Below, one piece after another: positions 30,470 through 32,141 of a stretch of 32,141 nucleotides of DNA (the stretch's first letter is position 1; each line of letters begins with the position of its first letter). The DNA is from Planctomycetaceae bacterium. Lineage in GTDB: Bacteria; Planctomycetota; Planctomycetia; Pirellulales; Pirellulaceae. Location of the stretch: positions 1 to 32,141 of the forward strand of contig JAAEMV010000448.1 of the NCBI GenBank assembly GCA_024225195.1, in the 5' to 3' direction. A program made the translations under genes and the position numbers. Below the pieces are notes generated by a model, which did not search any database, was not told where the DNA came from, and saw only the letters and a list, made by a program, of their open reading frames with translations.

Positions 30470-30828
30470 AGACCGCGTCGGAAGGGCGTTCTCGTCTAGC
30501 AAAACTAAGAATAGAGATTCAGGAATTTGACCGGTGAGAGGTTTTTGGTTTCTCCTTTGCGTGAAGATCTTTCAGCCCGCTCGAGCTCCGCAAATTCTTT
30601 AATTTCTTCTAAATGGATGCCTGCTTTAGCATTGCCTATCCCTTTGTTGTGTGGGGTTGGGTAAAAAAACACTGGTTTTGATCGGGTTTTATATCTGGTG
30701 TCACAAGCATGTCTATTTTCGATGGGTTTGGCAGGAAAAGTCGAAATTCCTCGTGATTAACAAAGGTGCTGTTATACTGTGAGCGTTGGAAATATTGGTT
30801 TGCGGCTGTCCAAGCAGGGGAGTTCGAA
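30470..30828. other. Intergenic stretch with a short open minus-strand segment
   Basis: No gene can be supported. On the minus strand an open segment ends at 30505 and reads KAGIHLEEIKEFAELERAER, then SSRKGETKNLSPVKF. It looks protein-like but has no start codon context and is under 60 residues, so it may be a gene remnant. The region nearest 30829 holds the promoter of the lipoprotein gene and its GGGGAG ribosome site (30817-30822). Confidence 0.5.
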
Positions 30829-32034
30829 ATGAAAAAATTCGGAATATTAAATACATGTGCTGTTTTAATCGCAATGGTTAGCATGGCAGGTTGTGCTGAT
30901 CCGGAACCAGAGGTGGCTAAGACATCTGGCTCAGCAACCAATTCAGAACGTGAATCAGCCACTAGCCGTGGCCCTGCCAGGCCAGACACTCGCCCTGCGG
31001 CCGTCGAGAATCGAAACGGTCGAGACATGGCAGCGGTAGATAGCGAGCGTGCCAATTCGGAATCGCCCAATGTGCGTGATTCAAGACCCCCGGAGTCACG
31101 TGATTCAGGCTCATCCGAGTCGAGAGGTTCTCGACCTGACGGTCCTGGTATGGGAGTTGGATCCGGCATCGGGGGGACCGCGTTACCAGGCATTCGACCG
31201 CCTGGTGAAAACAACTTCAGCGATGCTTCGTCTGGAATAGGCATGGCGTCTCGAGACAATTCTTCACGAAATCCGGATGCTTCAAGAAATCCAGATGCTT
31301 CACGAAATCCAGCGTCAGGGCGTCAACCAGTGCCTCGGGAGTATAAGTTGGAGTTTGCTTCTGCTTCCGGTGCGAAGGGATTGGAAGTCGGTGACACGAT
31401 TCCAGAAGTCAGCGGTAAGGATTTGGACAACATCAAATTTAAGCTCTCGGATTATCAAGGCAAAGTTATCATGTTGGATTTCTGGGGGGATTGGTGACCG
31501 CCTTGCCGTGCGATGTACGGACACGAGCGGACGCTCGTCAATGAGATGAAAGGACGCCCCTTTGTGTTGTTAGGGGTTAACAGCGACAAAGAAAAAACGA
31601 AAGCCAAAGATGCAGTCAAGGATAATAATTTGAATTGGCGGAGCTGGTGGGATAAGAGTACGCAAGGTGACATTTCATCCAGTTTTCAAATTCGAGGTTG
31701 GCCGACGATATTTTTGATTGACCACGAGGGAGTTATTCAGGCTAAAAATTTGCGTGGTAGCCAATTAGATACAGCAATTGAACAATTGGTGGCTCGTGCT
31801 GAAGGAGCTGGGGCCGAAGGGGGCCCATTCATTAGTGAGTGGCGCACGTTCGAAGACTCAAATGGGAAATTTCAGGTGGAGGCACGGTTGGTTGGTATGG
31901 AAGGTGGGAATGTCATCCTGCTGAGAAGATCTGACCAGGTTGAAATCGACGTACCACTTTCGAGGTTGAGCAAGCGGGATCAATCGTTCACTCGGACAGA
32001 AATCAAACGTTTAAACGCGATGAATCGACTGTAA
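30829..32034 (+). CDS. Selenocysteine-type TlpA/thioredoxin-like lipoprotein with SHD1 domain (in-frame TGA at 31495)
   Basis: Read through TGA 31495-31497 as selenocysteine, the product is 401 residues. ATG 30829 follows GGGGAG and gives a lipoprotein signal ending SMAG-C22. Residues about 25-175 are a low-complexity Ser/Arg/Asp/Pro linker. The thioredoxin domain spans about 180-325: GLEVGDTIPEVSGKDL, KVIMLDFWGDW, then U223-P-P-C226, RAMYGHERTLV, LLGVNSD and the cis-Pro motif RGWPTIFLID. Planctomycete TlpA-like proteins have Cys at 223 in W-C-P-P-C. The C-terminal 60 residues (ISEWRTFEDSNGKFQVEARL, then VDVPL-like IDVPLSRLSKRDQ) form an SHD1 domain. It should be a membrane-tethered thiol-disulfide oxidoreductase outside the cytoplasm. 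Frame is continuous on both sides of the TGA, so only the stop itself argues for a broken gene. A nonsense mutation or base-call error remains possible. Confidence 0.75.
31264..31315 (+). repeat. 18-bp tandem repeat in the lipoprotein linker
   Basis: Two full copies and a partial third of TTCACGAAATCCRGATGC, differing at single bases, encode SRNPDA-SRNPDA-SRNPA in the linker before the thioredoxin domain. The unit is a multiple of three, so copy-number changes keep frame. Confidence 0.8.
31495..31538 (+). promoter_or_regulatory. Candidate Sec UGA and bacterial SECIS hairpin
   Basis: TGA at 31495-31497 is followed 25 nt later by a perfect 6-bp stem, ACGAGC (31523-31528) with GCTCGT (31533-31538), and apical loop GGAC (31529-31532). 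The loop begins 31 nt after TGA and has G at its first two positions, within the spacing and loop rules described for bacterial SECIS elements. A smaller 4-bp hairpin (CCGT 31506-31509 / ACGG 31517-31520) sits between. Confidence 0.6.
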
Positions 32035-32063
32035 TTCAGCACGTTGAGCGGTTGCTTCAACAG

Positions 32064-32111
32064 AACTCGATTCGGAAGAGGTAGGCTAGCCTCTTCCTTA
32101 TCGAGTTTTTT
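32064..32111 (+). terminator. Rho-independent terminator of the TlpA-like lipoprotein gene
   Basis: A two-part hairpin: outer arms AACTCGAT (32064-32071) with ATCGAGTT (32100-32107), inner arms GGAAGAGG (32074-32081) with CCTCTTCC (32090-32097), loop TAGGCTAG, and a T-run (32106-32111). It lies 30 bp after the stop TAA, which fits full-length expression of the gene through the TGA. Confidence 0.85.
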
Positions 32112-32141
32112 ATTAGATCCAGCCTTCCGTCTTAAGCGTCA

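Follow-up and report, generated by a model that had tools for sequence, protein, structure and literature searches.

A predicted selenocysteine-containing TlpA-like lipoprotein with a C-terminal SHD1 domain in Planctomycetota

Main finding

The gene at positions 30829-32034 (forward strand) of the window, by which we mean the whole analysed stretch of 32,141 nucleotides, is very likely a real selenoprotein gene, and the TGA at 31495-31497 is predicted to be read, very probably, as selenocysteine (Sec). With high confidence we regard its product as a tethered TlpA/ResA-like lipoprotein with an SHD1 domain, most likely a reductase, in which UGA would be translated by SelB and tRNA-Sec under the direction of a hairpin in the mRNA. 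The computed support consists of conservation of the UGA codon, the Sec machinery, a SECIS element, the domain structure and purifying selection. The protein has a new architecture and belongs to a large unmodelled clade within a known kind of selenoprotein.

Gene and domain architecture

The genome to which the window belongs, as contig C448, is that of a marine planctomycete (6.43 Mb in 1063 contigs, 94% complete), and several of the genus-level relatives of this genome are recorded as Mariniblastus or Pirellulaceae. Re-reading of the DNA confirmed what the earlier note had described: one frame at 30829-32034 with a single internal stop, the TGA at 31495-31497, located at the first active-site cysteine (W-U-P-P-C, in the motif FWGDW-U-PPCRAMYGHERTLV). 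The frame ends with TAA and encodes 401 amino acids, which comprise a lipoprotein signal, a disordered linker, a Trx/TlpA-like domain and SHD1. The signal peptide with lipobox MAGC (30829-30894) was read directly, and Cys22 is the predicted lipid attachment site according to the lipobox rule; in alignment A1 a Cys occupies this column in 11 of 14 rows, the remaining three having a gap. It is followed by a Ser/Arg/Pro/Asp-rich linker (30895-31374) which is predicted to be disordered (pLDDT of 28-39 in ten-residue blocks) and of which the dN of 0.06-0.29 is the highest among the gene parts in all six orthologue comparisons. The TlpA/ResA-like thioredoxin domain of approximately residues 183-326 (31375-31806) is recognized by Pfam, by sequence matches in the PDB, by AlphaFold and by Foldseek. 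It harbors residue 223, encoded by the TGA and forming the first position of UxxC according to site checks in homologues, the resolving Cys226 of this motif (31504-31506), which is invariant in alignments A1 and A2, and Pro292 in a W-P-T sequence (31702-31704), invariant in A2, which we take to be the cis-Pro of the thioredoxin fold. The SHD1 domain of residues 335-390 (31831-31998) belongs to PF03983, with E 2.9e-11 and 43.5 bits against a gathering score of 23.7. The Pfam models above cut-off are AhpC-TSA (187-305), Redoxin (187-310) and SHD1 (335-390), and the combination of a PF00578 domain with a UxxC active site, by which Prx-like selenoproteins are recognized, is present.

A cupin gene is located upstream at a distance of about 360 nt and is matched in six of the seven named genus orthologue loci, one of the six matches being a fragment at a contig end; this neighbourhood suggests no function. 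An Rfam gathering search of the window gave no matches. The proper terminator mentioned in the earlier note was recovered in part, with an inverted repeat at about 32066-32105 followed by T6 visible by eye, whereas a promoter and terminator consensus scan of 30470-32141 lists none. In a scan of both strands of the window, 14 TGA codons have 60 or more stop-free codons both before and after them; among these only the one at 31495 lies, as judged by eye, in a recognizable active-site motif.

Conservation of the UGA codon and selection

Sixty genomes, the source genome and its relatives, were searched by protein and the TGA site was then checked on the exact DNA. Position 223 is TGA in the window and in the seven closest orthologues, which are 78-95% identical over the matched part. 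The TGA is kept in the genus orthologue L018, 95% identical over residues 1-401, and is found in all orthologues from seven separately titled MAGs (L070-L076), which here stand in for the read-level check proposed in the earlier note. The TlpA-SHD1 protein occurs in 14 of the 28 genus genomes, each with one TGA at the site; in the copy of G022 (L024) a stretch of N takes the place of the SHD1 part. Three further SHD1-bearing proteins, from other MAGs titled Pirellulaceae or Planctomycetaceae (L077, L078, L081), likewise have TGA at this position. For the entire TlpA-SHD1 clade this amounts to TGA in 17 of the 17 sequences found, with SHD1 confirmed by Pfam in 16, and the question raised earlier, whether close homologues have TGA or a Cys codon here, is thereby answered in favor of TGA.

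Among 122 distinct homologous sites (loci up to L177; L031_3249 and L066_3895, which represent one gene, were counted once) the codon is TGA in 86, TGC in 25, TGT in 10 and GCC in one, proportions of TGA to Cys that are biased, as is the apparent link between GDW and Sec, because the related loci were chosen with M[LI]DFWGD and WCPPCRAM as peptide patterns and because A1, the query of the related-locus and phylum searches, contains Sec proteins only. The site checks refer to the fetched loci, a subset of the listed matches. The gene thus displays the arrangement by which selenoproteins are recognized, a single in-frame UGA where homologues have Cys.

The dN/dS values of codons 224-401 in comparisons with six orthologues were 0.00, 0.02, 0.02, 0.05, 0.07 and 0.08 (dS 0.1-1.1), and therefore the half of the protein beyond the TGA is most likely translated and needed. 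Together with the match to L018 these values show that the frame is no product of chance, and they support the earlier statement that the downstream half is not decaying. Seven of the 22 window ORFs examined end in TGA; the codon is an ordinary stop in the window, and therefore the recoding is site-specific and not the consequence of an altered code.

Selenocysteine machinery

The source genome encodes a tRNA-Sec with anticodon TCA (67.4 bits, cut-off 47), a SelB of 643 amino acids (365.9 bits, cut-off 242), SelA (489.8 bits) and SelD (257.4 bits, cut-off 125). The check for selA, selB, selC and selD proposed in the earlier note thus found all four in the same genome, and the machinery for selenoprotein synthesis is present. 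The other seven tRNA-Sec-like matches in this genome are ordinary tRNAs. SelD is encoded on contig C223 (L194:164-2386) in a frame of 740 amino acids which appears by eye to have an additional oxidoreductase-like N-terminal part and a Cys active site, CLGCGG; Ndh-SelD fusions with Cys are mentioned in excerpts of a marine survey (PMC2398784).

SelB scores above cut-off in 42 of the 60 genomes and in 25 of the 28 within the genus, with the genus genomes in which it was not detected (G002, G004 and G023) being 71-89% complete. A tRNA-Sec was found in 44 of the 60 genomes, although several of these matches score near 50 bits and may be other tRNAs. The TGA site was verified on DNA in 29 of the 60 genomes, 26 of which have SelB and 27 of which have SelB or tRNA-Sec; the genomes with TGA and neither component are G004 (80% complete) and G023 (71%). 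Outside the genus, TGA was verified in five of 17 SelB-positive and none of 15 SelB-negative genomes (one-sided Fisher p 0.03), a weak association in a comparison where six of the 15 SelB-negative genomes have no row among the matches listed and the matches were fetched in part only. For the other nine SelB-negative genomes the sole listed TGA-bearing row (G059) has Cys at the site.

The SECIS hairpin

The sequence ACGAGC-GGAC-GCUCGU at 31523-31538 forms a hairpin with a 6-bp stem and a tetraloop at 31529-31532 (dG −8.5 kcal/mol), the spacing from UGA to loop being 31 nt. This element is an addition to the observations of the earlier note. The sites align gap-free over 48 nt past the UGA and, with U of UGA as position 1, nucleotides 29-34 pair with 39-44 around a loop of 35-38. 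All six pairs can form at 81 of the 86 TGA sites versus none of the 35 Cys sites, which serve as a control sharing the protein fold (the GCC site was left out of these counts). At the remaining TGA sites five pairs (four sites) or four pairs (one site) are formed, and four Cys sites form five. Fisher's p of about 1e-25 overstates independence because the stem is part of the coding sequence and the sites are relatives of one another; the site sets share descent, were found with Sec-protein queries and do not represent independent events. A set of 25 fresh sites, obtained with a protein profile from the 29 loci of the phylum search described below, has TGA throughout, with six pairs in 24 and five pairs in one.

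Loops at the 86 TGA sites are GGUC (76), GGAC (7) and AGUU (3). The window clade has GGAC instead of the usual GGUC: among window-type orthologues GGAC, with Thr codon ACG, is found in seven of eight and GGUC, with a Ser codon, in L023. The A of the window loop is presumably the base matching U24 of E. coli fdhF, a loop base thought to be important for SelB, and the loop lies some 12-13 nt farther from the UGA than what we take to be the distance in the fdhF bSECIS. The bSECIS model in the excerpts of PMC13188914 specifies a loop of 3-9 nt, a stem of 4-16 bp, G in the first two loop positions, a spacing of 16-37 nt and an MFE of at most −7.5. The window hairpin lies within every one of these bounds, with its loop as the GGAC variant.

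Standard pairs occur in 97.5% of the alignment cells (40 distinct rows). A double change from G-C to A-U is found at pair 33-40 in five of the 40 distinct rows, at the cost of a Leu to Phe replacement in the protein (HERSLV to HERSFV), while changes at the other pairs are one-sided or the pairs are invariant. Counts of covarying pairs and pair types were reached by 275 of 500 shuffles, with two of five control measures no better, and this lack of a covariation signal arises because the stem is nearly invariant. RNAalifold, unprompted, returned the same hairpin and nothing else. Codon choice is frozen, with CGG at the Arg codon in 83 of 86 sites and UCG or ACG as the next codon, also in 83 of 86. 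When the MFE was compared with synonymous-codon shuffles over 16 codons, the mean z was −1.70 for 87 TGA sites (one of them a duplicate), −0.47 for 31 Cys sites and −0.17 to 0.12 in two flanking segments. The window hairpin itself gives z −3.2 over an 18-nt stretch, and longer segments of the window RNA give weak z-scores of −0.9, −1.3 and −1.5. A 51-nt segment alone favors an overlapping fold of −17.0 kcal/mol, and the SECIS hairpin takes over once approximately the first 12 nt, UGA included, are omitted, as they would be inside the ribosome.

The near-universal element is this distal hairpin. A hairpin directly following the UGA, CCGUGC-GAU-GUACGG, was considered as SECIS and rejected since it is not general; a variant of it at columns 14-16/24-26 is paired in 77.5% of cells. 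The pattern CGAGCGGTCGCTCG was used to search the 60 genomes for the same SECIS in unrelated genes, with the reversed pattern as control. Fourteen matches outside TlpA-like sites were examined, the rest coming mostly from order-level genomes with the control being about as common. A TGA lies 12-37 nt upstream in four of the 14. None of these four TGA codons has the 29-nt spacing seen in TlpA sites or is flanked on both sides by at least 60 open codons; in view of this spacing and these frames, the matches look like background. The TlpA-like SECIS, which constrains the protein sequence, represents a clean case of RNA constraint on a coding region. The earlier proposal of Sec at residue 223 is strongly supported by the machinery, by TGA in all clade sequences found, by the dN/dS values and by the SECIS, from which we infer the insertion itself.

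Fold and proposed mechanism

In an AlphaFold model built from the 14-row alignment the first 182 residues are disordered and are followed by a thioredoxin domain (about residues 183-326) and SHD1 (about 337-399). The overall scores of the model are modest (pLDDT 61.8, pTM 0.51), with pLDDT of 60 for the active-site block 221-230 and 92-95 for the SHD1 blocks of 341-390. U223 is positioned just before the helix of residues 224-239, which is where the nucleophile of such enzymes usually sits. Foldseek and phmmer searches of the PDB matched thiol-disulfide oxidoreductases including BVU-2223, ResA, DsbE/CcmG and TlpA, with Foldseek TM values normalised by target of 0.61-0.88 among the matches listed. 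The features of the broad TlpA/ResA-like fold, an active-site pair at the first long helix and a conserved Pro, are both found.

In the mechanism that we propose, the UGA at 31495-31497 would be decoded by SelB and tRNA-Sec, directed by the hairpin with its loop 31 nt downstream. The product would be a secreted lipoprotein in which a flexible tether of about 160 residues precedes the Trx domain and the C-terminal SHD1. With an active site of Sec223-x-x-Cys226 it most likely works outside the cytoplasm as a thiol-disulfide (selenenylsulfide) reductase. A substrate disulfide would be attacked by the Sec selenolate, the resulting mixed selenenylsulfide would be resolved by Cys226, and electrons from a membrane donor would return the Sec-Cys pair to its reduced state. 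The probable role of SHD1 is to dock a partner or substrate. In this proposal the reductase direction, the donor, the substrate and the role of SHD1 are inferred.

Alternative explanations

A genuine stop or a sequencing error at the TGA, with the gene truncated or decaying, appears to have a negligible probability; TGA does end seven of the 22 window ORFs, yet the same codon is found in orthologues from separately titled assemblies, the 178 downstream codons are strongly constrained and the SECIS is conserved. The same use of TGA as a stop elsewhere, which extends to the ends of the L029, L030 and L077 genes, argues against insertion of another residue, either Cys, through an opal tRNA-Cys or an allo-tRNA, or Trp or Gly, through a changed code. 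In principle a suppressor with a UCA anticodon could read UGA at a Cys position, but among the eight tRNA-Sec-like matches the sole UCA is that of tRNA-Sec, and tRNA-Cys has GCA. With SelA, SelB and SelD present and the full hairpin occurring at TGA sites only, such decoding is extremely unlikely.

It is also very unlikely that the UGA is primarily a regulated switch which at low selenium would give a 222-residue lipoprotein without redox domain and with a role of its own. Any Sec UGA competes with termination, and a full lipoprotein signal and long linker are encoded upstream; this linker, however, is fast-evolving (dN 0.06-0.29) and predicted to be disordered, which makes it unlikely that the short form has a conserved function. 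A Sec enzyme with peroxidase (Prx-like) or oxidase/isomerase activity, instead of disulfide reduction, is a lesser but serious possibility, as the top Pfam model of the protein, AhpC-TSA, describes a family that includes peroxiredoxins. The UxxC active site differs from the TxxU of Prx (motifs as given in the excerpted Table 1 of PMC13188914), and the nearest solved structures, ResA, CcmG and TlpA, are disulfide oxidoreductases, in agreement with the preferred assignment as a reductase.

Relation to known selenoprotein families

A 2026 catalogue of 119 families and subfamilies (PMC13188914, excerpts) includes in its Table 1 Prx-like PF00578 proteins with UxxC or UxxU, cd02966 UxxC, PF08534 UxxC and UGC-TlpA. 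Since UxxC TlpA/Prx-like selenoproteins are already catalogued, the kind is known. The Prx-like PF00578 selenoproteins share the Pfam domain and UxxC with the window protein, and UxxU relatives also occur here (L191-L193, see below), whereas the lipoprotein architecture with SHD1 is absent from the excerpted Table 1, a comparison made by description only. The cd02966 and PF08534 selenoproteins have UxxC and, by domain name, a related fold; an SHD1 fusion and long tether are not listed for them in the same excerpts, again compared by description. The UGC TlpA selenoproteins (NF041054, WAxxUGC) are likewise TlpA/ResA-like Sec proteins but have the motif UGC instead of UPPC, and the window protein scores 23.4 with this model against a cut-off of 300. 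ResA, TlpA and CcmG (DsbE) have the fold, the CxxC position and the cis-Pro region in common with the window protein, which differs in having Sec for the first Cys and in possessing SHD1. It also scores below the NCBIfam cut-offs for ResA (73.6 against 170), TlpA (48.4 against 230) and DsbE. The opinion in the earlier note that such a selenoprotein family had yet to be described therefore needs to be narrowed: it stands for the SHD1 fusion, which is unlisted, and does not stand for the UxxC proteins of PF00578, PF08534 and cd02966 in the excerpted catalogue. New are the SHD1 fusion on a lipoprotein tether, a clade that is widespread and has a single near-invariant SECIS, and, within the genus, an expansion of paralogues accompanied by a probable reversion from Sec to Cys.

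Excerpts of PMC4807772 describe selenoproteins in two planctomycetes from Porphyra, and these candidates may overlap with the window family. Similarly, the marine Prx-like 1 (pfam00578, UxxC) and Trx-like 1 (COG0526, UxxC) families in the excerpts of PMC2398784 may already contain relatives of the window gene. The excerpted main texts of PMC12013277, PMC2398784 and PMC5029168 do not mention the phylum Planctomycetota, those of PMC1242214 mention only a Pirellula peroxiredoxin, as a homologue, and those of PMC1794560 only the phylum name. A search of the open-licence literature linking selenoproteins with Mariniblastus, SHD1 or Planctomycetota gave nothing on the window family. According to excerpts of PMC13188914, selenoproteins are rarely retained by aerobic bacteria; excerpts of PMC5029168 report Sec users in aerobic and anaerobic conditions alike. 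The window protein does not reach the cut-off of any NCBIfam model, and genes of this type would for that reason be liable to annotation as two fragments or as a pseudogene. A model of the clade would reveal dozens of Planctomycetota selenoproteins.

Evolution and distribution

A tree of the Trx domains was calculated for 116 of 123 sites; left aside were the one site with GCC, four with Cys that score below 100, and two TGA sites on short fragments. The tree needs at least four U/C changes, against a mean of 27.5 for shuffled data. The SHD1 clade comprises 17 rows (support 98/91), all of them U. A Cys clade of 13 rows (100/98), including the C711 copy of the source genome, is nested in a group of 36 rows (99/97), 23 with U and 13 with C, and is most simply explained as a reversion from Sec to Cys, a direction that is left unproven because the tree is unrooted and its backbone weak. 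The C711 paralogue (G000:C711:1060-1494, L047) and its relatives have the sequence FWGHWCPPC, and the hairpin is absent. The source genome harbors at least four verified TGA copies (C448, C695, C621 and C156, the last with five of the six hairpin pairs) in addition to the Cys copy C711; such Sec and Cys paralogues in one genome provide a natural test of the benefit of Sec in a secreted thioredoxin-like enzyme. Genome G010 has six TGA copies, four on its own loci and two on the named loci L119 and L133, which were assigned to it by contig ranges overlapping protein-search matches. In G025, a genus member whose genome is a single contig, a TGA paralogue occurs together with SelB and tRNA-Sec.

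For the phylum search, 392 genomes from 267 genera were used, with four candidates scored per genome and a match defined as E ≤ 1e-50. Matches were found in 58 genomes from 42 of the 267 genera. At least one TGA is present in the matched stretch of 94 of the 95 rows listed, the exception being the Cys copy C711 of the source genome, and the site was verified as TGA in the 29 new loci that were fetched. Outside the source genome no match extends past model position 330 of 444, and the SHD1 fusion therefore looks confined, in this sample, to the genus and its near relatives. We lean slightly towards a history in which Planctomycetota possess an old and widespread Sec-TlpA clade whose SECIS dictates HER-S/T-L-V, with Sec being ancestral and Cys arising by reversion, an expansion in Mariniblastus, and one surface-tethered branch that carries SHD1.

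Several relatives have unusual arrangements. Two Trx domains in one frame, each with its own TGA and hairpin, are found in L118, L123 and L128 (two sites each) and in L093 (sites 759 and 1797), which appear to encode double selenoproteins with two UxxC domains. In L191 (G046), L192 (G044) and L193 (G014) TGA occupies both active-site positions (UxxU, as in HVULTU and GGUGPU), and ERSLV with the hairpin sequence still follows downstream. Two nearby TGA TlpA sites per contig occur in L062 (G010:C1), L066 (G045:C57), L199, L207 and L077. Among the 50 TlpA-like relatives of A2, one has a trypsin-like protease domain and one has leucine-rich repeats. TGA homologues with the hairpin are also found on contigs titled Verrucomicrobia and Proteobacteria (L139, L122), possibly as a result of transfer or of misassigned MAGs.
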